DNA of 64,000 nt from Streptomyces adustus (GTDB lineage Bacteria; Actinomycetota; Actinomycetes; Streptomycetales; Streptomycetaceae), in assembly GCF_009377175.1 (NCBI RefSeq), contig NZ_VJZD01000010.1, positions 1 to 64,000 on the forward strand, read 5' to 3'. The translations under genes and the position numbers were made by a program. The notes beneath the pieces were generated by a model, which saw only the letters and a program-made list of their open reading frames with translations, made no database searches and was not told the DNA's origin. Shown here one piece after another: positions 6,930-63,222 of the stretch. How positions within the stretch are numbered: position 1 is the first letter of the stretch; every line of letters starts with the position of its first letter.

Positions 6930-7158
6930 GCATCGAAGGCCAAGGAACAAGCTCCGAGCAGCCGCCGGCACCGCGGCCGTGACGCCCGCCCGCGCGGTCG
7001 GTCGCTGCCTTCACTTGTTCGGCGACTACGGCTATGTACGGGAGTACCCGATCGCCCGTCCGTAGGCGGACGGGCGCATCACCCGTATCTACGCAGGGAC
7101 CAGTGAGGCCATGAAGGTCATCAGCGCCGAATCCCTCGGCTGTGACGCATGTTCCTGA
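6930..7158 (+). pseudogene. Decayed 3' end of an acyl-CoA dehydrogenase gene
   Basis: Translation from 6991 gives RAVGRCLHLFGDYGYVREYPIAR, an in-frame TAG at 7063-7065, then ADGRITRIYAGTSEAMKVI and SAESLG. This is the conserved C-terminal end of acyl-CoA dehydrogenases (LFGGYGY...REYP..R.Y.DARI.RIY.GT.E.MK). The TAG replaces the conserved Tyr of R-x-Y. An upstream piece ASKAKEQA (6930-6953) fits the preceding ACAD helix but is in another frame. The rest of the gene is gone. Its expected stop would fall just before the SDR start, suggesting the two once formed an operon. Confidence 0.75.
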
Positions 7159-7925
7159 ACGAGTTCTCCGAGCGGCACGGAGTCGCTCTGGTCGCCGGCG
7201 GCACCGGCGGCATCGGTTCGGCGGTCGTCCGGCTCCTCGCCGGGCGCGGCAGCGCGGTCGCCTTCACCTACCGCTCCGACAAGGAGAAGGCCGACGCGCT
7301 CGCCGGGGAGGTGCGGGCCTCCGGCCGCTTCGTCGGCTCGGTGCGGGTGGACCTCACCGACGAGGAGGCCACCGCGCGGGCCGTCAACGACCTCGCCCGC
7401 CGCGGCGGGGGTCTGCACACCCTGGTGTACGCCGCGGGACCGCACGTACCCATGACGCATCTGAGCAAGGTCACGCCAGGCCAGTACCGTGCCCAGCTGG
7501 AGGCCGACGCCGTGGCGTTCTTCGATCTGGTGCACCCGGCGCTGCCGCTGCTGCGGGAGAGCCGCGGCAGCGTCGTCGCCGTGACGACGGTCGCCACGCG
7601 GCGGTTCCCCGTCCGCGACGGACTGTCCTCGGGCGCCAAGGGGGCGGTCGAGGCCGTCGCCCGTGCCCTCGCCGCGGAGGAGGGACGATACGGCGTGCGC
7701 GTCAACTGCGTCGCCCCCGGCATGCTCACCGACGGCATCGCCGGCCGCCTCATCAGCTCCGGCGAGCTGGACGAGGGCGCCCTCGCCGTCACCCGCCGCA
7801 ACATACCGTTGCGCCGGTTCGGGCAGGCGCAGGACATCGCGGAGGCGGTGGCCTTCCTCGCCTCGGACCGGGCCGGGTTCATCACCGGTCAGGCGCTGGG
7901 GGTGGACGGCGGGTACAGCGTCTGA
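7149..7925 (+). CDS. SDR-family oxidoreductase with altered catalytic Tyr
   Basis: A 258-residue classical short-chain dehydrogenase/reductase, FabG-like in length. The NAD(P)-binding motif GGTGGIGSA is near residue 17, YAAGPH replaces the usual NNAG, and NCVAPGML and GQALGVDGGYSV are typical C-terminal motifs. In the catalytic segment the family has YxxxK, but here the sequence is LSSGAKGAVEA, so the Lys is kept and the Tyr position is Ser. That change should abolish or alter ordinary dehydrogenase activity. The gene overlaps the end of the decayed acyl-CoA dehydrogenase, pointing to a former lipid or polyketide catabolic operon that may no longer function. Confidence 0.88.
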   Translation: MFLNEFSERHGVALVAGGTGGIGSAVVRLLAGRGSAVAFTYRSDKEKADALAGEVRASGRFVGSVRVDLTDEEATARAVNDLARRGGGLHTLVYAAGPHVPMTHLSKVTPGQYRAQLEADAVAFFDLVHPALPLLRESRGSVVAVTTVATRRFPVRDGLSSGAKGAVEAVARALAAEEGRYGVRVNCVAPGMLTDGIAGRLISSGELDEGALAVTRRNIPLRRFGQAQDIAEAVAFLASDRAGFITGQALGVDGGYSV

Positions 7926-54566: not shown

Positions 54567-55910
54567 CTACTTCATCGTGACCGGCGGTCGGGACGTGGTG
54601 TACCGCTTTAGCGCGGAGCGCATCGCGCCCGCCATGCCCGTGGGCGAGATCCGCCCGGCGAGCGCCTCGATGACCGTTCCGCCGATCACGCCCTGGAAGT
54701 CCGAGCCGGCGCCGGTGTACCAGGCGACCGGGTCGTACTGGGCGTTGAAGGCGGCCTCGACGTAGTTGCGCTGCGGCGACAGGTCGAGGAACGCCTTGCT
54801 CCTCTGGGTGGGCAGCCAGGCGGGGATGTGCCCGCCCTCGGCCCACACCGCGCTGCTGTCGAGCAGGCTCTTGACGAACTTCGACGCATTGCGGGTGCGG
54901 GTCTCGTCGCCGCGGTCGTTGCGCGGCAGGATCAGCGCGTGCGAGTCGGCGTAGGCCACCGGCTTGTCGCCGAGCAGCGCCGGGAACGGCACGACGTCGA
55001 ACTTCAGGTTCTTGACCCCCCGGTACGACGGGATCTGCCATTCCCCGTCGAAGAGGAAGCCGGCCTTGCCCGTGCTGAAGAGGGCGTTGGCGCCCGCGCC
55101 GGTGAGGTTCTTCGGCATCAGGTTCGGGCCGGTCAGGCTCTGCATGAAGGCGACCGTCTCCCGCATCGCCTCGTCATCGATGGCGATCTTCGTCCCGGAG
55201 TCGGTGACGATCGGGCCGGCCAGGCCGGAGTAGACCATGCTGAAGAAGCGCCAGGCGGTGGACGGGTCGGCGGTGATCGACATGACCGCGCCGTACTGGG
55301 CGCCGCCCGCGTCCTTCATCGCCTTCACCGCGGCGACGAAGTCCTCCTTGCCCTCGAGGGGCACGAGACCGTCGCCGGCGGAGTTCAGCAGGCCCGCCCT
55401 GCGGGCGATGTCGACGTTGTAATAGAGGACGAAGGGGTGCGTGTCCAGCGGGACCGCGTACACCTTTCCGTCCACGGTGGCCTTCTTCCAGGCCGCCGGC
55501 GTGAACTTGTCCTCGGTGACACCCAGCTCCCCGAGGGGGGTGTCCTCGACCGGCTGAAGCAGGCCGGAGGCGGCCAGCAGCGGGAGCCGGGAGAGGTGGG
55601 TGATGCCGACGTCCGGCGGGGTGCCGCTCGCGGTGGCCAGTGCAAGCTTCGTGTAGTACGGATTGCCCCAGCCCAGGATGGTCGCGTCGACCGTCGTTCC
55701 CGGGTTGGCCTTCTGGAACGCCTTCTCCATCAGCACCATGTTGGCGCCGTCACCACCGGTGAAGAGGTTCCAGAAGATGACATCCGCCGTGTTCGGCTGC
55801 GAGCCCATAAGGCCGGACGCGAGCGGGGAGGAGCACGCCGCGAGCCCTCCGGTCAGGGCAAGGCCACCGCCGAGGGCAAGAAACCGCCGGCGCGCCATCG
55901 CTCCGCTCAT
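54567..55910 (-). CDS. Extracellular sugar-binding lipoprotein of the ABC transporter
   Basis: A 447-residue CUT1 solute-binding protein. Signal MSGAMARRRFLALGGGLALT continues to GGLAACSS, combining a twin-Arg-like RRRF with lipobox LAAC. Mature motifs: DVIFWNLFTGGDGANMVLME, AFQKANPGTTVDATILGW, PPDVGITHLSRLPLLAASGL, and WQIPSYRGVKNLKFDVVPFP. It captures a sugar outside the membrane and delivers it to the two permeases downstream. A LacI-type palindrome lies ~60 bp upstream. The start at ATG 55910 follows gaggtg. Confidence 0.93.
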   Translation of the reverse strand: MSGAMARRRFLALGGGLALTGGLAACSSPLASGLMGSQPNTADVIFWNLFTGGDGANMVLMEKAFQKANPGTTVDATILGWGNPYYTKLALATASGTPPDVGITHLSRLPLLAASGLLQPVEDTPLGELGVTEDKFTPAAWKKATVDGKVYAVPLDTHPFVLYYNVDIARRAGLLNSAGDGLVPLEGKEDFVAAVKAMKDAGGAQYGAVMSITADPSTAWRFFSMVYSGLAGPIVTDSGTKIAIDDEAMRETVAFMQSLTGPNLMPKNLTGAGANALFSTGKAGFLFDGEWQIPSYRGVKNLKFDVVPFPALLGDKPVAYADSHALILPRNDRGDETRTRNASKFVKSLLDSSAVWAEGGHIPAWLPTQRSKAFLDLSPQRNYVEAAFNAQYDPVAWYTGAGSDFQGVIGGTVIEALAGRISPTGMAGAMRSALKRYTTSRPPVTMK

Positions 55911-55969
55911 AGGGGTATTCACCTCGTTAAATCGATGTGAACTCGATGGCGCAGACCCTCGCACACGTT

Positions 55970-55983
55970 TTGCAACGATGCAA
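55970..55983. promoter_or_regulatory. LacI-type operator upstream of the ABC operon
   Basis: ttgcaacgatgcaa differs from the perfect palindrome at 57244-57257 by one base (12 of 14 positions symmetric). It lies ~60 bp upstream of the binding-protein start. Confidence 0.8.
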
Positions 55984-56055
55984 TAGACCGCGGCGAACAA
56001 GTCCGCCGGGCCGCTGCCGCGACCGAGCGTCACCTCGCGCGCGCCGGACTCCGAC

Positions 56056-57120
56056 TCACTCCCGGGGGGCCTCGCGGCGCGAGGACTCCCGTACGACCAG
56101 CCGGTACGGTGTGGGCTCCTGGGGCGCCGCCACCACCGCGCCCACCTGCGCCTCCCCGTCCGGCGCGGCCTCCTCGGAGGCCCCGCGGGACTGGATCTGC
56201 TCCTCCAGCAGGGCCAGCGCGCGCTCGGCGATGGCGTCGAGGTCGGGGGCGATCGAGGTGAGCGGCGGGTGGGTGTAGGCCGACTCCTGGATGGCGTCGA
56301 TACCGACGACGGCGACGTCCTCGGGCACCCGCACCCCGGAGGCGTCCAGGGCCCGCAGCGCGCCGACGGCCAGCGCGTCGTTGAAGGCGAAGATGGCGTC
56401 CGGCAGCGGGCCGTCGCCCTCCAGGAGCTCCCGCACGGCCGCGTAGCCCTGGTCCCTGGTCCAGTCCTCGACCGGTACGACCAGCCAGTTCACCCGTCGC
56501 ACCCGGGCGGCGGACATCGCCTGCTCGTAACCCTCGGTGCGCTGGCGGCCGTTCTCGCTGCCGTTGCGGCCGAGCGCGACGATCCAGCGGCAGCCCTGCT
56601 CCAGCAGGTGCTCGACCGCGGTGCGGGCGGCCGCCACATTGTCGATACCGACGCGGGGAAACTGGTCGCCGACGCTGTGCTCACCCAGCATGACCAGCGG
56701 AAAGTCCGGCTTCTTGGCGGCGACGTCGCCCGCGGGCAGGGTCAGGGCGCTCAGCAGCACCCCGTCGGCGACATTGGTCAGACCGCCCTCGATGATCTGC
56801 CGCTCCACCCCGCTGTCGCCCGCGGTCGACTCGACGAGCACCGTGATGCCGCGCCGGCCCGCGGCCCGGATGACGGCCTGGGCGAGCTCGGCGAAGTAGG
56901 GCTCGGCGAGGAACGGCACCGCCAGCGCGATGAAGCCGGTGCGGCCCGAACGCAGGCCGCGCGCCAGGTAGTCCATGCGGTAGCCCAGCTCGTCCAGCGA
57001 GCGCTGCACCTTGGCGCGGGTGTCGGGGCTGACGTGCTCGTAGCCGCTGACCACGTTCGACACCGTGCGCACCGACACCCCGGCGTGCTCGGCCACGTCC
57101 CGCATCCGCACTCTGGCCAC
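56056..57120 (-). CDS. LacI-family transcriptional repressor
   Basis: A 354-residue LacI/GalR regulator. HTH: VRMRDVAEHAGVSVRTVSNV, VSGYEHVSPDTRAKVQRSLD, then ELGYRMDYLARGLRSGRTG (hinge). Sugar-binding core: GFIALAVPFLAEPYFAELAQ, LVMLGEHSVGDQFPRVGIDN, PDAIFAFNDALAVGALRALD, DVAVVGIDAIQESAYTHPPL, LTSIAPDLDAIAERA. Start is GTG 57120 with aaggagg 6 nt upstream. It sits between the ABC operon and the divergent GH2 gene, and two matching palindromes lie at both promoters, so it most likely represses both and is induced by the imported sugar. Confidence 0.93.
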   Translation of the reverse strand: MARVRMRDVAEHAGVSVRTVSNVVSGYEHVSPDTRAKVQRSLDELGYRMDYLARGLRSGRTGFIALAVPFLAEPYFAELAQAVIRAAGRRGITVLVESTAGDSGVERQIIEGGLTNVADGVLLSALTLPAGDVAAKKPDFPLVMLGEHSVGDQFPRVGIDNVAAARTAVEHLLEQGCRWIVALGRNGSENGRQRTEGYEQAMSAARVRRVNWLVVPVEDWTRDQGYAAVRELLEGDGPLPDAIFAFNDALAVGALRALDASGVRVPEDVAVVGIDAIQESAYTHPPLTSIAPDLDAIAERALALLEEQIQSRGASEEAAPDGEAQVGAVVAAPQEPTPYRLVVRESSRREAPRE

Positions 57121-57243
57121 TGGGGCCTCCTTCCCGTCGTGTCGGCACTCGGAGACTGCCGGGTGGCCCCGTCAGCGGCCGGCAGGAACTCAGAGTCTGC
57201 CGCACCGCGGAGCCCCGACTCATCGTCGCATCTCCTCCAGGTC

Positions 57244-57257
57244 TTGCATCGATGCAA
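57244..57257. promoter_or_regulatory. LacI-type operator between repressor and GH2 gene
   Basis: ttgcatcgatgcaa is a perfect 14-bp palindrome with the central CG typical of LacI/GalR sites, 82 bp upstream of the GH2 start and 124 bp upstream of the repressor start. Confidence 0.88.
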
Positions 57258-57338
57258 ATGATCACTCATGATGACAGGGCTTCGATCGTAGAAACACGCC
57301 CATGCCGGGAATTCCGGAAAAGGGCAGGAGGAGGATCC

Positions 57339-59195
57339 GTGAGGGCGAGCGAGCAGGACGGGACGTATCCGAGGCCGATCCTGCGCCGGGAGCGGTGGCA
57401 CAGCCTCGACGGCGTCTGGGAGTTCGGGTACGACGACGCCCGCGACGGCGAGCGCGACGCATGGTTCTCCGAGCAGGCGACGGGCGCCTTCGACCGGGAG
57501 ATCACCGTCCCCTTCCCGCCCGAGGCCCCCGCCTCGGGCATCGGCGAGACCGCTCCGCACGCGGTGGTCTGGTACCGCCGCCGCATCCCCCACGCCACCC
57601 TCGCCGTCAGCGGCGGCGAGCGGGCACTGGTGCACTTCGGAGCCGTCGACCACCGGGCCAAGGTGTGGCTGGACGGCACGCTGGTGGCCGAACACATCGG
57701 CGGCCAGACCCCGTTCACCGCCGACGTGACCGACGCGCTACGCCCCGGCGCCGACGAACACGTACTCGTCGTGCGCGCCGAGGACGACCCGGCCGACCTG
57801 GCACAGCCCCGCGGCAAGCAGGACTGGCAGGACCGGCCGCACGCCGTCTGGTACGAGCGCACCACCGGCATCTGGCAGACCGTGTGGACCGAGACCGTCG
57901 CCGCCCAGCACATCACCGACCTGGCCTGGATCCCCGACCCGATGCGCGGCGTCGAGGCCGAGATCACCCTCGCCTCCACACCCGCCACCCCGGTGACCGT
58001 GGACATCGTCCTCAGCCACGAAGGCCGGACACTCGCCCGCTCCACCACCTCGGTCCACACCCCGCGCGGCCGCGTCGACCTCGTCGTCCCCGCCCTGCGC
58101 AACGGCATCGACCGCGAGGACCTGCTGTGGAGCCCCGAGCGGCCCACACTCGTCGACGCCCGGGTCACCGTCCGCGACGCCGCCACCTCCGAGGTCCTCG
58201 ACACCGTCGACAGCTACATCGGCCTGCGCAGCGCAGGCGTCGGCCGGGGCGCCTTCCTGCTCAACGACCGCCCGTACTACGTGCGTTCGGTGCTCAACCA
58301 GGGCTATCGCCCCGACACTCTGATCGCCAACTCCGGCACCGCCGAACTGCGCCGCGAGGTCGAACTGATCAAGGCGATGGGCTTCAACGCCGTCCGCATC
58401 CACCAGAAGGCCGAGGATCCGCGCTTCCTGTACTGGGCCGACCGGCTCGGCCTGCTGGTGTGGGGCGAGACCGGAGCCGCCTACGAGTACGGCACCGAGG
58501 CCGTGGAACTGCTCACCCGCGAATGGCTGGACATGGTGCGCCGCGACCGCAGCCACCCCTCGATCGTCACCTGGGTCCCGGTCAACGAGAGCTGGGGCTG
58601 CTCCGACATGGCGAACGACCCGGCGCAGCGGGCCTACACGGTCGCCCTCGCCAACCTCACCCGCGCCCTGGACCCGACCCGCCCGGTCATGTCCAACGAG
58701 GGCTGGGAGCACACCGACAGCGACATCATGGGCGTGCACGACTACTCCTCCGACCCCGAACTCCTCACCCGCCGCTACGGCGACACCGACGGATTCGAGG
58801 CACTGCTCGCCTCGCCGGGCCCCGCCGGACGCGTCCTCTCCCTCGACGCACGCCAGACGGAGCGCTACCGCACCGGTGAAGCCCCGCTGATGCTCACGGA
58901 GTTCGGCGGTCTGTCCGTGGGCGCGGAGGAGGACGAGTTCTCCTACACGCGAACCAGCTCCGACACGCAGTACGCCGCCCTGCTCGGCGACATCTTCGGG
59001 GTGCTGCACAAGAGCCCGATCGTCGCGGGTTTCTGCTACACCCAGTTCATGGACACCGCCCAGGAGACCAACGGCCTTCTCTACGTGGACGGTTCACCGA
59101 AGCTGCCGCTGGAGACGATCCACCGCATCGTCACCGGCACCGCTCCCGCCCCCGAGGAGAAGCCCGACTCCCCGGCCCCGGCCGACCGGGTATGA
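57339..59195 (+). CDS. GH2-family glycoside hydrolase
   Basis: A 618-residue GH2 enzyme. N-terminal jelly-roll sugar-binding domain (RWHSLDGVWEFGYDDARDGE, TVPFPPEAPASGIGETAPHA, KVWLDGTLVAEHIGGQTPFT), an immunoglobulin-like domain (~200-300), then the TIM barrel with AMGFNAVRIHQKAEDPRFLY, general acid/base Glu in VTWVPVNESWG (NE) and nucleophile Glu in MLTEFGGLSVG. Family members act as beta-glucuronidase, galactosidase or mannosidase; specificity is open. No secretion signal is seen, so it probably acts on imported sugar. GTG 57339 follows aggaggatcc. Confidence 0.94.
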   Translation: MRASEQDGTYPRPILRRERWHSLDGVWEFGYDDARDGERDAWFSEQATGAFDREITVPFPPEAPASGIGETAPHAVVWYRRRIPHATLAVSGGERALVHFGAVDHRAKVWLDGTLVAEHIGGQTPFTADVTDALRPGADEHVLVVRAEDDPADLAQPRGKQDWQDRPHAVWYERTTGIWQTVWTETVAAQHITDLAWIPDPMRGVEAEITLASTPATPVTVDIVLSHEGRTLARSTTSVHTPRGRVDLVVPALRNGIDREDLLWSPERPTLVDARVTVRDAATSEVLDTVDSYIGLRSAGVGRGAFLLNDRPYYVRSVLNQGYRPDTLIANSGTAELRREVELIKAMGFNAVRIHQKAEDPRFLYWADRLGLLVWGETGAAYEYGTEAVELLTREWLDMVRRDRSHPSIVTWVPVNESWGCSDMANDPAQRAYTVALANLTRALDPTRPVMSNEGWEHTDSDIMGVHDYSSDPELLTRRYGDTDGFEALLASPGPAGRVLSLDARQTERYRTGEAPLMLTEFGGLSVGAEEDEFSYTRTSSDTQYAALLGDIFGVLHKSPIVAGFCYTQFMDTAQETNGLLYVDGSPKLPLETIHRIVTGTAPAPEEKPDSPAPADRV

Positions 59196-59306: not shown

Positions 59307-60707
59307 TCAGGGCATGGCCGATTTCCGTTCGGCCTCCGTCACCGGCGGGCCCTCCAGGAACGGCTTGCGCGGGCCGAACAGCATGGGCAGGAGCATGTCG
59401 GGTGAGAAGAGCCGGGTGGCCGGCTTCTCCAGGCTCATCACGTCGAGCAGTGCGCCGAGCGCTCGCGGATTGCGGGCGCCGGTGGCGACGGCTCGATCGA
59501 CGAAGCGGGCCAGGAACTTCTCCACGGCGGTGGGCGGGGTGTCGGCGGCTCCGGGATAGAACGCGTCCTGGCCGACGGCCAGGTCCCACGCGGCGGCGAC
59601 GGGACGGGCCACGGCGCGCTGGACACGGAGAGCGGCGCCTGGGTCGGTAAGGTGCGCGCGGCGCAGGACGCGGCGCAGGGCGAGGGCGCTCTGGGCGGAG
59701 ACGGTCAGGCCGTGGCCGTAGACCGGGTTGTAGCCGGCCACCGCGTCACCGAGGACCGAGAACCCCTCCGGCCAGCGCTCGGCCTTCTCGTAGTAGCGGC
59801 GTCGGTTGCCGGTGGCCCGGGTGGTCTCGACGCCTCCGATCGGTTCGGCGCCCTTGATCAGGTCTCCGATGACCGGGTCGCCGAGAGCGAGCGCGAAGTC
59901 CACGAAGGCTTCGGGGTCGGCGGTGGGTTCACCGCCCCGTGTACCGGAGAGCGTGACGATCCAGCGGCCGCCCTCGACGGGCAGGATGATGCCGCCGCGG
60001 CCGGGCGGGGCGGCGGGGTTGGCCTGCACGTTGACCAGCGGGAAGTCCATGTTCTCGGTGGTGCCCGGGGCCCGGTAGAGGCGGGTGGCGTAGGCGACGC
60101 CGGCGTTGACCGTCCGTTCGGTGACGTCCGGGAGGCCGAGGTCGCGCAGCCAGTGGGGGGCGCGGGAGCCACGCCCGGAGGCGTCGATGACCAAGTCGGC
60201 GGAGATGGTGAGTTCTTGGTCTCCCGCACTTGCCCGAATGCCGGTGACCCGCCGGGCGTCGCCTTCCAACGCGTGGACGGTCGTGTGCTGTTGCAGAGTG
60301 ATGCGCTCGTGGGCGAGGACGCGGTCACGGAGCACGGAGTCGAGGAGGTCCCGCGAGCACACCAGGTTGCGGTGATGAGTGGACAGGAAGCGCCGGAACC
60401 AGATCTCGTTGGGGGCGCGGGAGACCATGTCGCCCATGATGTGGACGAGACGGCCACCACCGGCGACGATGCCGTCGACGAGCCCCGGCACGAGGTCGTC
60501 GAAGGCTCTGACGCCGCCGCTCCACACCAGGTGCGCGTGACGGGCCTGGGGCACACCGGTACGCGGCTGCGGTCCGGCGGGCAGGACGTCGCGTTCGACA
60601 AGGGTGACATCGGCGAACTCGGCGAGCACGGACGCGGCGAGGAGACCGGTGACACTCGCGCCTATGACGATCGCGGTGGGCCGACCGGCGGTGGCTCTGT
60701 CAGGCAT
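59307..60707 (-). CDS. FAD-dependent monooxygenase-like oxidoreductase
   Basis: A 466-residue flavoprotein. The FAD Rossmann motif AIVIGASVTGLLAASVLAEF opens the protein, with LVERDVLP and GVPQARHAHLVWSGGVRAFD, the latter typical of the halogenase/monooxygenase branch. DLVIDASGRGSRAPHWLRDL and the FAD ribityl motif LGDAVAGYNPVYGHGLTVSA are also seen. Its N-terminal start overlaps the membrane-protein stop by 8 nt (60700-60707), so it is the last gene of the XRE-HExxH-7TM operon. Substrate unknown. Confidence 0.9.
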   Translation of the reverse strand: MPDRATAGRPTAIVIGASVTGLLAASVLAEFADVTLVERDVLPAGPQPRTGVPQARHAHLVWSGGVRAFDDLVPGLVDGIVAGGGRLVHIMGDMVSRAPNEIWFRRFLSTHHRNLVCSRDLLDSVLRDRVLAHERITLQQHTTVHALEGDARRVTGIRASAGDQELTISADLVIDASGRGSRAPHWLRDLGLPDVTERTVNAGVAYATRLYRAPGTTENMDFPLVNVQANPAAPPGRGGIILPVEGGRWIVTLSGTRGGEPTADPEAFVDFALALGDPVIGDLIKGAEPIGGVETTRATGNRRRYYEKAERWPEGFSVLGDAVAGYNPVYGHGLTVSAQSALALRRVLRRAHLTDPGAALRVQRAVARPVAAAWDLAVGQDAFYPGAADTPPTAVEKFLARFVDRAVATGARNPRALGALLDVMSLEKPATRLFSPDMLLPMLFGPRKPFLEGPPVTEAERKSAMP

Positions 60708-61896
60708 GCGGATTCACGCTTTCTGTGCTGATCACTTCGTGACGGATGCTGTCGACGATTCGCGGGCGGTGCATGGCTTGGGAGACGGCGTCGATACGGT
60801 CGCTCAGTTCGGAGGTGGACTGCGGAGCGGGATTGCCGGAGTGATGAAGGGGTCCTGCTCCTCGATAGGCGTCGGTGGCTGCCTGCACGGTGATCGCCCC
60901 GGCGATGCCGTGTGCTGCCTTCTCGGTGTGCGTGCCGAGCGCTGCCGTGTACGCCCGCGCGTAGAGACCGTCGTCCACATAAGGAGAGAGCAGACGCAGG
61001 GCGTCGTGAATGCGTTGTCGGCGTTGCAGCAGACGCAGGTCCAGGGGTGCCCACACTCCGATGCGGGCCTTGGCCGCCGCCGGGGACAGCAGGCGGGTCG
61101 CTCGCCACAGGGGGTACAGCCGGCGGTACTCACGTTGGTCACGGGTCCACTTCTGGAGGAAGGGTCCCGCCTGGGGAACGATGAAGCCCATGGCCACCAA
61201 AATGGCCTCCAGGAGTGCGAACGGCGGTGCCGCCTGTGTGCTGAGGGCATCCCAGTCGGTTCCGGCCCAGCGAGCTCCGATCGCGGCCCACTTCGCCGCG
61301 TCGTAGAGAAGACCGAAGGCGAACCCCGACTGCAGGCAGACCACTCCCGACTTCATCCAGCGGTTCTCCACCTGGGGAAACCACTTCCAGAGCATGTAGG
61401 CGGCGACCAGCGCCGACACCATGTGCGCCAGGAGGTAGAGCAGGATGTGCTCGCGCATCCAAGCGGTGCCGGCGTAGTAGGTGTCCAGGTCGTAGATCCG
61501 CGGGACGGGGACATCCGCCAGAAGGAACGTCACCCACAGGGCGGCGATGACACCCGCATAGACGAGGTAGATCAGGCGCATCCGGCGCCGACGCCGCTCG
61601 GACGGCTCTTCCCGCCACCGCATGATCATGGTCAGGCTCGTGGCGCAGAACGCGGTGAGGAACGAATAGGCCCACGGCGCGGCGATGTTCGGGACGCCGG
61701 TCCATTGGTTGAGCCGCTCGATGTTGGCGGGCGTGATGACGACGAGGACGGCTGCGGCCCAGGTCAGCAGCAGCGTGGTCGCCCGCACGTCCGGATCGCG
61801 CCAGGCACGCAGAAGCGTCGGGAACTTCAGAACAAGCGCCAGCACCAACAGCACGGTCGGTATCGCATAGGAAATGTGTAAGTTCGCGACGGTCAC
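60700..61896 (-). CDS. Seven-TM membrane protein (MAB_1171c-type putative transporter)
   Basis: A 398-residue protein. Seven predicted helices: ISYAIPTVLLVLALVLKFPT, RATTLLLTWAAAVLVVITPA, WAYSFLTAFCATSLTMIMRW, RLIYLVYAGVIAALWVTFLL, HILLYLLAHMVSALVAAYML, VVCLQSGFAFGLLYDAAKWA and LLEAILVAMGFIVPQAGPFL. The C-terminal ~160 residues are cytosolic: REYRRLYPLWRATRL and RIHDALRLLSPYVD. This layout matches actinobacterial proteins annotated 'MAB_1171c family putative transporter', which usually lie beside XRE and ImmA/IrrE-like genes. GTG 61896 overlaps the upstream TGA. Function unknown. Confidence 0.75.
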   Translation of the reverse strand: MTVANLHISYAIPTVLLVLALVLKFPTLLRAWRDPDVRATTLLLTWAAAVLVVITPANIERLNQWTGVPNIAAPWAYSFLTAFCATSLTMIMRWREEPSERRRRRMRLIYLVYAGVIAALWVTFLLADVPVPRIYDLDTYYAGTAWMREHILLYLLAHMVSALVAAYMLWKWFPQVENRWMKSGVVCLQSGFAFGLLYDAAKWAAIGARWAGTDWDALSTQAAPPFALLEAILVAMGFIVPQAGPFLQKWTRDQREYRRLYPLWRATRLLSPAAAKARIGVWAPLDLRLLQRRQRIHDALRLLSPYVDDGLYARAYTAALGTHTEKAAHGIAGAITVQAATDAYRGAGPLHHSGNPAPQSTSELSDRIDAVSQAMHRPRIVDSIRHEVISTESVNPHA

Positions 61897-62501
61897 AGGA
61901 TGCGCCCGCTTCTATGGCTCAGCGAAAGCGTGATGCGCCCTTCGACGGTGGCCGGGCTGAGGGGACCCTCCGCGTACCGGCCCCGCATCCAGGTGCGCAC
62001 CTCCCTGCCGAACAGCAGGCCGAAAGTCTCCGCGTCCACTTCGTGCTCGTCGGCGGATTCGGCTCGGGCCGCGACGGCCAGCACGGCTTCGCGGGGCACT
62101 TCGTGTGCGGCCAGGAACTGCTCCACGGCGCGCTGGATCGCCTCGGGCGTCCGGTCGGCGGTCAGGGCACGGGCGGCGGCCGGGTACCCGACCGGGTGCT
62201 CGCCGCAGTCACCCTGTTCCTCGTGCCATAACTCATGTCCCAGGATGACCAGTTGGGCCTCGGGGGCCGTGTGTTCCTCCACCACGATGATGGACTGGTC
62301 CGCGCAGTCGAGGCGCATGCCGGAGACGGGGATGTCCGGCGGGAACGCGCGGAACACAAGCCGGATCGGCCGACCTGCGCGCACGCTCATGGCTCGACAG
62401 AACTCCCGCATCACGACCTCAGGTTCAGCCGGCCGTTGGATCGACCGCGAGGCCTCCTCACCCAGGGCGGCGATCAGGAGTTTCATGGCCTTGGTACTCA
62501 T
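61893..62501 (-). CDS. HExxH putative metalloprotease (ImmA/IrrE-like)
   Basis: A 202-residue protein. The zinc-protease motif HELWHEEQGD (HExxH) lies near residue 88, preceded by SIIVVEEHTAPEAQLVILG, the pattern of ImmA/IrrE-like peptidases that cleave XRE repressors. A C-terminal helical half includes AESADEHEVDAETFGLLFGR. ATG 62501 is chosen (gggag upstream); it overlaps the XRE gene by 44 nt, and its own stop overlaps the 7-TM gene by GTGA. Inferred role: proteolysis or control of the adjacent regulator. Confidence 0.8.
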   Translation of the reverse strand: MSTKAMKLLIAALGEEASRSIQRPAEPEVVMREFCRAMSVRAGRPIRLVFRAFPPDIPVSGMRLDCADQSIIVVEEHTAPEAQLVILGHELWHEEQGDCGEHPVGYPAAARALTADRTPEAIQRAVEQFLAAHEVPREAVLAVAARAESADEHEVDAETFGLLFGREVRTWMRGRYAEGPLSPATVEGRITLSLSHRSGRIL

Positions 62502-63108
62502 CGTCAGGGTCTCCCTTCTGGGGCAGCACGGACCGCAGGACTCCGCCCAGGACGCGCTCGAGCTGATCACGGGTCATGGAACCGTCCGTGCGCAGATCCG
62601 CGCTCCGCACTCCGAACTTCTCCATCAGAGCCAGCACGGGGTCCGATTCAGGACCCTCCAAGCGACGCAGGACCGGCAGGAGGACCCGGTTGAGGGCCTC
62701 GTCGGCCGGTGCGGTGAAAAACGCCTCTCCCCCGTCGACCTGGAAGAAGTCCACCAGGCTGTGAAGGAGTTCGACACTCGGCACCTTTTTGCCGTCACAG
62801 ACCTGGCGGGCCCAGTATTCGGACACGCCCACCTGCTCGTGGATCTCCGCGGCGAGGTCCGACATGCGTGTGCGGGTACGGTCCAGACGGGCGGTGGCCA
62901 GCAATTTGATGCGCGCGCGAACACGGTCGTTGACACTGTCGTCCGGCGCACCGCCGCCACCGAGTAGGCTGCGGACGGTCTTTTCGGGCAGTGCTGTCTT
63001 CGCTGCCAGTTCGCGGGGGTCGAGCAGGTGTGACTGTTTGCCGTCCTCGGTGTCCATGTACGTCCTGAGGCGTTCCAGCGTCTCGCGGAGAGGCACCTTC
63101 GATTCCAC
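62458..63108 (-). CDS. XRE-like helix-turn-helix regulator
   Basis: A 216-residue DNA-binding protein. N-terminal segment ELAAKTALPEKTVRSLLGGG resembles one HTH, and a second region MSDLAAEIHEQVGVSEYWAR then QVCDGKKVPSVELLHSLVDF is the XRE-type HTH of antitoxin/ESX-linked regulators that precede HExxH partners (FFQVDGGEAFFT). A C-terminal domain follows (LMEKFGVRSADLRTDGSM). First gene of the four-gene operon; the 11-bp inverted repeat at 63188-63222 lies ~80 bp upstream. Confidence 0.82.
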   Translation of the reverse strand: MESKVPLRETLERLRTYMDTEDGKQSHLLDPRELAAKTALPEKTVRSLLGGGGAPDDSVNDRVRARIKLLATARLDRTRTRMSDLAAEIHEQVGVSEYWARQVCDGKKVPSVELLHSLVDFFQVDGGEAFFTAPADEALNRVLLPVLRRLEGPESDPVLALMEKFGVRSADLRTDGSMTRDQLERVLGGVLRSVLPQKGDPDDEYQGHETPDRRPG

Positions 63109-63187
63109 TGGTGTACTCCCGGGGTTGGGATTGCCACGCCGCGCTTCCGCGGCGCGCCTGGCAGCCTACGCACCCCCACTCCGTCCA

Positions 63188-63222
63188 TCAACGATCGATG
63201 AGCAGCCGAATTCGATCGTTGA
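63188..63222. promoter_or_regulatory. Inverted repeat upstream of the XRE operon
   Basis: tcaacgatcga (63188-63198) and tcgatcgttga (63212-63222) are perfect 11-bp inverted arms around 13 nt. Position ~80-115 bp upstream of the XRE start makes it a candidate operator. The rest of 63109-63512 shows no gene I can support. Confidence 0.65.

Follow-up and report, generated by a model that had tools for sequence, protein, structure and literature searches.

A recurrent actinobacterial gene cassette that may form an undescribed signal-and-receptor system around a seven-helix membrane protein of receptor-like predicted fold

What might a DNA-binding regulator, a zinc-protease-like protein, a seven-transmembrane (7TM) protein and a flavoenzyme do together when their genes run into one another on the same strand? 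This question is raised by the 64,000-nucleotide stretch of Streptomyces adustus DNA analyzed here (contig NZ_VJZD01000010.1, positions 1 to 64,000; hereafter, the window), in which a first-pass annotation had described four overlapping genes at 59307-63108 encoding an XRE protein, an adjacent HExxH protein, a 7TM protein and a flavin oxidoreductase, here designated X, H, T and F. All four minus-strand open reading frames (ORFs) were found at that place, and their coordinates confirm the three junction overlaps it had listed: 44 nt between X and H (62458-62501), 4 nt (GTGA) between H and T (61893-61896) and 8 nt between T and F (60700-60707). Likewise, the HExxH motif is present in H as HELWH, beside the XRE gene, and F matches FAD_binding_3, in agreement with its description as a flavin oxidoreductase. 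We propose that this cassette (Table 1) is a self-contained 7TM receptor-protease-repressor signal-transduction system with an accompanying enzyme, a reading to which we give an even chance of being right.

Table 1. Predicted genes of the cassette and predicted regulatory elements upstream of X, in window coordinates (aa, amino acids; HMM, hidden Markov model)
Feature	Position	Strand	Length	Remarks
X: XRE-type regulator, distant EspR relative, predicted autorepressor	62458-63108	-	216 aa	found beside H and T by iterated HMM
H: HExxH...E protein, ImmA/IrrE (M78)-like	61893-62501	-	202 aa	conserved residues and fold match
T: 7TM protein, MAB_1171c/DUF6545 family, G-protein-coupled receptor (GPCR)-like predicted fold	60700-61896	-	398 aa	
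F: flavin monooxygenase, Lsd18/MonCI epoxidase type	59307-60707	-	466 aa	
Proximal operator palindrome	63190-63199			reads ATCGATCGTT towards X; abuts -35; 1 mismatch to consensus
Distal operator palindrome	63211-63220			reads AACGATCGAA towards X; 21 bp from proximal; 2 mismatches
Predicted operon promoter	63163-63191	-		TTGATG (63191-63186), 17 nt, TAGGCT (63168-63163)

The search for T covered 150 same-family genomes, 296 from the phylum and 394 from the class, and the neighborhoods of its matches were read with profiles and a home-made gene caller. It is present in 60 of the 150 same-family genomes; at the phylum level 22 of 296 genomes contain any match, nine above the family cut-off, and at the class level 57 of 394 contain matches at E ≤1e-10. 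In the 60 family-level stretches, which represent the better-scoring T rows with the weaker tail left out, 55 of 70 T genes have a same-strand H no more than 1.2 kb upstream, and the order X, H, T is seen for 35 of the 70. The corresponding figures are 37 and 29 for 40 class-level loci, chosen from the class matches with several weak or partial rows left out; H is found in 19 and both X and H in 16 of the 21 loci from other families, compared to 18 and 13 of the 19 loci from the genus itself. A third set comprises, besides the window, 79 loci, all from Streptomyces and skewed toward close relatives, drawn from the 80 top-ranking of at least 554 places matched by a profile of 13 closer T rows. 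In this set H lies just upstream of T (same strand, at most 400 nt) in 78 of the 80 loci, and the gene arrangement is X-H-T-F in 38, H-T-F without a detected X in 27, H-T in 7, X-H-T in 6 and another in 2. Furthermore, H-family genes occur in 116 of the 150 same-family genomes with one to seven copies where present, and chance adjacency of H and T is therefore a poor explanation. The four families do co-occur, and at none of the family, class and Streptomyces levels did we see the rare co-occurrence that would speak against the first-pass proposal. The four overlapping genes recur as an actinobacterial cassette.

The junctions between these genes are conserved as well. In the Streptomyces set, H and T overlap by 4 nt in 52 of 78 junctions and by 1 nt in 19, the T/F overlap is exactly 8 nt long in 52 of 66, and of 44 X/H junctions 30 overlap by 4 nt and 10 by 8 nt, all counted with the start nearest to a 4-nt overlap chosen each time, which biases them toward overlaps. 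The overlaps of the cassette genes are more than chance. The 44-nt overlap of the window is a local variant and not the family pattern, because the window X reads about 13 residues past the end seen in its close relatives (62458-62500), which mostly have a 4-nt X/H junction. F is taken as the last gene of the operon because a convergent plus-strand ORF (57252-59195) comes next; a terminator scan downstream of F found none. The neighbors at 54567-59195, which we take to resemble sugar ATP-binding cassette, LacI and glycoside hydrolase family 2 genes, were considered as cassette members and dropped, since the recurrent families beside T differ in most of 60 relatives.

The proteins were aligned using 44 of 70 T, 42 of 60 H and 29 of 45 X members found, the window included. 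In H, residues G61, H89, E90, H93 and E154 are invariant in all 42 aligned sequences, among them those from loci without a detected X, and Peptidase_M78 is matched at E ≤0.01 by 10 of the 42. When an AlphaFold2 model of H (predicted local distance difference test [pLDDT] score of 79) was re-aligned to known structures, the best nine rows (Z 6.3-10.3) were PprI/IrrE, a M. tuberculosis regulator with an IrrE-like domain (6d2s, which we take to be PrpR) and CapP. PprI/IrrE scored 10.3 and 10.0, the M. tuberculosis regulator 9.7 and CapP 8.7 (123 residues), and the first unrelated zincin followed at 5.5. The two features on which the first-pass annotation had staked the ImmA/IrrE assignment, a third zinc ligand and a structural match, are thus found in the invariant Glu and in the IrrE/CapP rows heading the fold list. 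On this model, H is an IrrE/CapP-type domain carrying HExxH and a third-ligand Glu.

Pfam HTH_3 (helix-turn-helix, HTH) was detected in 23 of the 29 aligned X members, and the window X itself has no Pfam match. Searched against the PDB, the 29-row X profile retrieved EspR first (E 6.3e-27), whereas with a 14-row profile of window-type X sequences EspR came up only at E 0.085 and was outranked by other proteins, most of them HTH regulators, and the window X alone gave no EspR match among the PDB sequences. The window-type and EspR-like X sets align by hhalign at 96.6% over 102 columns. These profile comparisons suggest that X is a distant relative of EspR.

Upstream of X lies a twin palindrome with consensus AACGATCGTT, its copies 21 bp apart and adjoining the predicted -35. 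Sites with at most two mismatches within 700 bp upstream of X number 92 in 43 X-bearing loci, compared to 3.8 expected from 30 base shuffles. A site pair is present in 23 of 34 close loci (window included), spaced at 21 bp in 20 of them and at 22 bp in 3. X is detected in all 23, and the nine close loci in which X was not detected contain no pairs and three single sites. Several more distant X-bearing loci (L159, L165-L170 and others) have a single weak site only. In the operator-pair loci the proximal site mostly runs into a TTG-type -35, and a TA(A/C/G)NNT hexamer occupies the -10 position in 21 of 23, compared to 0.28 in shuffles. A strict sigma-70 scan found no promoter upstream of X, and the promoter call therefore rests on conservation. 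In the 10.2 Mb of its own genome, the X promoter is the sole mismatch-free match to AACGATCG-N15-CGATCGTT, the next match having two mismatches; among 12 relatives chosen from the 79 Streptomyces loci for a genome-wide pair search, it is the genome's best pair in 11, and the L133 genome has no pair there. The only other paired site with two mismatches in the own genome, at G000:C487:37811-37841, may be another target of X. In L125, L129, L130, L139, L141, L143, L147 and L148 a further twin operator was seen about 220-360 bp upstream of X, perhaps marking a second promoter or a DNA loop. Other clades were searched for common upstream words; conserved words were seen and no operator was worked out from them.

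In the available text of PMC3315491, EspR of M. tuberculosis (PDB 4ndw, 3qf3) autoregulates and binds paired sites 19 bp apart, with an inverted repeat having a 16-bp gap, and it occupies hundreds of sites with a TTTGC-type motif. The 29-row X profile aligns with EspR over both the HTH and the C-terminal segment, and the paired sites of X recall the paired-site binding of EspR. In contrast with EspR, X is associated with a palindrome, with 0 to 2 exact pairs per genome in 13 genomes. The operator data thus make X, in all likelihood, an autorepressor dedicated to its own operon, unlike the global regulator EspR.

T scored 128.5 bits against NF042915, the NCBI MAB_1171c family of putative transporters (curated cut-off 100), and contains a DUF6545 (PF20182) domain at residues 249-359. 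Its predicted structure (pLDDT 90.3, predicted template modeling score 0.81) is composed of seven long helices, which we read as membrane helices, and a C-terminal part of about 150 residues; the 7TM protein with a cytosolic tail of about 160 residues that had been annotated in the first pass is recovered in these helices and this C-terminal part. Upon re-alignment of the model with VIA-align, 50 of 50 listed entries were GPCRs or designed GPCR-like folds, with Z-scores of 15.8-18.1 over up to 247 residues (the best, 7xp6, having Z 18.1 over 236 residues and a root-mean-square deviation of 4.5), a range to be read against the Z of about 13 that helical bundles without kinship can reach. The motifs DRY and NPxxY are hallmarks of the GPCR class, and neither was found in the conserved columns of the T alignment. 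The GPCR likeness of the T model is one of arrangement and not proof of descent, and T is not filed as a GPCR here. With loop borders set by hand, the loops read as cytosolic carry 8 K/R versus 5 D/E and the outer loops 4 versus 7, which fits a predicted topology with the N-terminus outside and the C-terminus inside. Furthermore, the frequency of the top residue averages 0.55-0.59 in the three outer loops, compared to 0.46-0.52 in six of the helices (0.56 in the first), and in closer T relatives they contain the words NRxTGVPN, DLDTYYAxTP and ARWxGxDLDxLST. Such conserved outer loops are as might be expected of an outer ligand site. T is a member of a family whose name implies transport, and its predicted fold suggests a receptor.

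F is homologous to the structurally solved polyether epoxidases Lsd18/LasC (phmmer E 3.5e-99) and MonCI (about 1e-96) over residues 4-458, and it carries close variants of two polyether-epoxidase signature regions, RTGVPQARHAHLVWSGG and GYNPVYGHGLTVSA. Among 68 F matches in the Streptomyces set, the first region is present in its loose form in 63 and in its strict form in 30, and the second in 67 and 55, respectively. According to the available text of PMC10560226, the MonCI paper, both regions are confined to polyether epoxidases and their pathways. Full-length homology and both regions place F, at the level of sequence, in the Lsd18/MonCI polyether-epoxidase family. F differs from Lsd18/LasC and MonCI in its surroundings, as no polyketide synthase was noticed beside the window F or among the recurrent neighbors, where no dedicated scan for polyketide synthase domains was made.

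The fourth gene of the cassette, in many cases one for a small-molecule enzyme, is exchanged in other lineages. Of 120 T genes, 30 have F as the next co-directional gene called within 400 nt downstream, 12 have a cytochrome P450 and 11 a small membrane protein; an amidase was found there 5 times, an amidohydrolase 3 times, a short-chain dehydrogenase/reductase and an unnamed pair twice each, another single gene 8 times and another cassette gene 9 times, the names being based on one or two members scanned per group; one of the two small membrane proteins scanned had a sub-threshold PAP2 match. Several swapped genes, including those for P450, amidase, membrane protein and methyltransferase, share 4 nt with the T gene. 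When the fourth-gene type, in seven labels, was placed on a quickly built tree of 118 of the 120 T proteins (300-430 aa), it required 26 changes compared to a shuffled mean of 60.4, with a value as low in none of 200 shuffles, a comparison that near-copies make generous. Receptor type and enzyme type thus travel together, which is what one would predict if the ligand of the receptor were produced or altered by the enzyme.

Several variants of the cassette were recorded alongside these analyses. A second cassette in the S. adustus genome (L005; G000:C153, 8592-14150) has the order T-H-T-T-F and no X on its contig, which ends there, and tandem T genes are also present in L065, L066, L068 and L185. 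H-T-F without a detected X occupies a conserved place in L005, L038-L041, L043-L047, L050-L052 and L068, often near sugar-use genes; genes beside these loci (L005, L038-L041 and others) presumably resemble the IclR and SMP-30 families. In L091-L093 and L239 the cassette is rearranged to T-X-H, with X and H after T. A T-less X-H pair lies at one conserved chromosomal place of Streptomyces in L105-L115 (in the S. adustus genome, G000:C530 near 6943-7446), and by shared neighbors L060, L062 and L064 hold T there too. T relatives are also present in 22 Streptomyces plasmid records, 12 of which cover at least 80% of T, and 'toxin' is among the features beneath the T match in 2 of the 22 plasmid rows.

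From these data we infer how X would bind its sites, how H would cleave X, how T would control H, and what the ligand and the enzyme would contribute. X would bind the twin sites at its own promoter and shut the operon. T would act as a 7TM receptor, with its N-terminus outside and its C-terminus inside, that binds a small, probably hydrophobic ligand, and the cytosolic domain of ligand-bound T would activate or release the zinc protein H. H would then remove X, most likely by cleavage, as in ImmA/ImmR, IrrE/DdrO and CapP/CapH, and loss of X would induce the operon, F included. F, as an epoxidase-type flavin monooxygenase, would make, modify or destroy the ligand and so close a feedback loop. 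Cassettes of other lineages carry, beside X, H and T, a P450, an amidase, an amidohydrolase or another gene where F would stand. The path from ligand through T and H to loss of X is the simplest reading because the T gene overlaps the H gene and known XRE-IrrE pairs cleave repressors. The first-pass annotation had already suggested a membrane-linked sensory system of XRE, peptidase, 7TM and flavin adenine dinucleotide (FAD) proteins. Its repressor half is strengthened by the twin operator and its sensing half by the receptor-like predicted fold of T; the FAD enzyme, in turn, proves to be one of several alternative partners, and X was detected beside H in only 44 of the 80 loci.

According to the available text of PMC10233336, the ImmR/ImmA (ICEBs1), DdrO/IrrE (Deinococcus) and CapH/CapP (cyclic-oligonucleotide-based antiphage signaling system, CBASS) pairs act by repressor cleavage. 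The cassette shares with them an adjoining XRE-type regulator and HExxH protein of IrrE fold, a shared promoter and predicted removal of the repressor. It differs in the EspR-like character of X, in the presence of a metabolic enzyme in the operon and in its input, which is probably a membrane 7TM receptor rather than single-stranded DNA, RecA or peptide signals. The X-H switch is of a known kind (ImmR/ImmA-type), and what is new is the GPCR-like receptor together with the interchangeable enzyme. Bacterial 7TM sensors are known, among them 7TMR-DISM and 7TMR-HD proteins and microbial rhodopsins, and have kinase, cyclase or HD-domain outputs. T would resemble these in its seven helices, outer N-terminus and cytosolic output, and would differ from them in that the output is a separate IrrE-like protein and a repressor. 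A literature search for the gene set or its families found no description, and the available text of PMC12419801 contained nothing relevant to it, with subscription papers mostly outside its coverage and absence from print therefore unproven; the cassette may represent an undescribed bacterial signal-and-receptor system.

A number of observations weigh against this proposal. For T, they include the transporter name given by NCBI, a Foldseek search in which the best PDB matches were GPCRs at a best E of 0.0019 with none below 0.001, an identity of 6-15% to GPCRs in the listed rows that leaves the likeness at the level of the fold, and a profile of 44 T proteins that retrieved no GPCR chain from the PDB sequences up to E 10. 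For H, the Peptidase_M78 match of the window protein (E 0.002, 18.4 bits) is below the Pfam cut-off of 22, so that H is called IrrE-like and not a Pfam M78 member; Foldseek with its model gave no match below E 0.026, and H might work by a route other than cleavage. In 36 of the 80 loci no X was detected next to H, and X-H pairs without T exist, so H need not answer to T. Upstream sites also number 14 in 34 X-less loci compared to 2.8 expected from shuffles, and operator-like sites, taken singly, are no more common in the window than expected (9 versus 11.8), for which reason the operator case rests on pairing and conservation. At up to three mismatches, the S. adustus genome contains 36 paired sites compared to 3 for the reversed pattern, a control count that may be too low since that pattern contains CTAG, which is rare in such genomes; further targets of X are therefore possible. 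Lastly, for 38 of the 120 T genes our home-made gene calls show nothing co-directional in the 400 nt that follow.

Some of these points lend themselves to other explanations. The cassette could be a transport or detoxification operon: T would carry a compound out of or into the cell, F would modify it, and X-H would do no more than answer an intracellular cue. 7TM transporters exist, and the family name 'putative transporter' and the polyketide-epoxidase type of F would fit such a role. In M. abscessus, moreover, knockout of MAB_1171c lowered biofilm formation to roughly half, and the authors take the protein to be involved in transport (PMC8707978), but the available text of that paper reports phenotypes and not transport; the model of T, for its part, shows one GPCR-like bundle of seven helices and an additional C-terminal domain, and we consider this explanation unlikely. 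Alternatively, T might recruit H to the membrane as a non-proteolytic anti-repressor or ligand-binding partner of X. IrrE-like domains act as sensors in regulators such as PrpR, and the M. tuberculosis regulator 6d2s ranks among the best fold matches of H, yet the invariance of HExxH and the third-ligand Glu in all aligned sequences, X-undetected loci included, argues for kept catalysis and makes this version, in our judgment, decidedly unlikely.

A toxin-antitoxin or defense module, with H as toxin and X as antitoxin and autorepressor, would account for the autoregulatory-type operator at X and for the 'toxin' beneath the T match in two plasmid rows, provided that this feature corresponds to H. 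However, of 78 loci 34 have H without a detected X, neither T nor the swapped enzymes fit a toxin-antitoxin pair, and no T match was found in 50,697 phage records. In PADLOC-DB, H, T and F matched nothing at E ≤0.1 and X matched only RmrA (E 0.063), and in the available text of PMC10233336 expression of ImmA from S. mutans ImmRA had only a minor effect in E. coli. A toxin-antitoxin, defense or phage origin was set aside on the phage and PADLOC results, the X-less H and the anatomy of the cassette, and we regard the toxin-antitoxin or defense module as highly improbable. The least probable account, in our view, is that the neighborhood mostly reflects vertical inheritance and the compact operons of Streptomyces, with T and the enzyme functionally unlinked: many H-T-F loci do share one conserved chromosomal place and near-copies inflate the tree test, but the X-H-T order is kept in 16 of 21 loci from other families, and the fourth gene is exchanged for others, with its types grouped on the T tree.

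The proposed receptor-protease-repressor system can be extended, tentatively and with more doubt than conviction, to a modular hormone-and-receptor system of Actinobacteria, in which a GPCR-shaped 7TM protein is co-inherited with its cognate small-molecule enzyme, such as an epoxidase, a P450 or an amidase, and signals through zinc-protease destruction of an EspR-like autorepressor. If true, this would add a further form of bacterial membrane-to-gene signaling beside kinases and anti-sigma proteolysis, and the enzyme gene would name the ligand class. Proof of receptor function would establish a new class of bacterial signaling. Should the proposal hold, a 'transporter' family and a group of orphan regulators would become a receptor system with a predicted operator, a predicted target for the protease and an enzyme whose type hints at the chemistry of the ligand. 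Streptomyces signaling molecules often control antibiotic production; bacteria would have a GPCR-shaped receptor with a proteolytic output, and the cassette would offer a route to new signaling molecules in Streptomyces.

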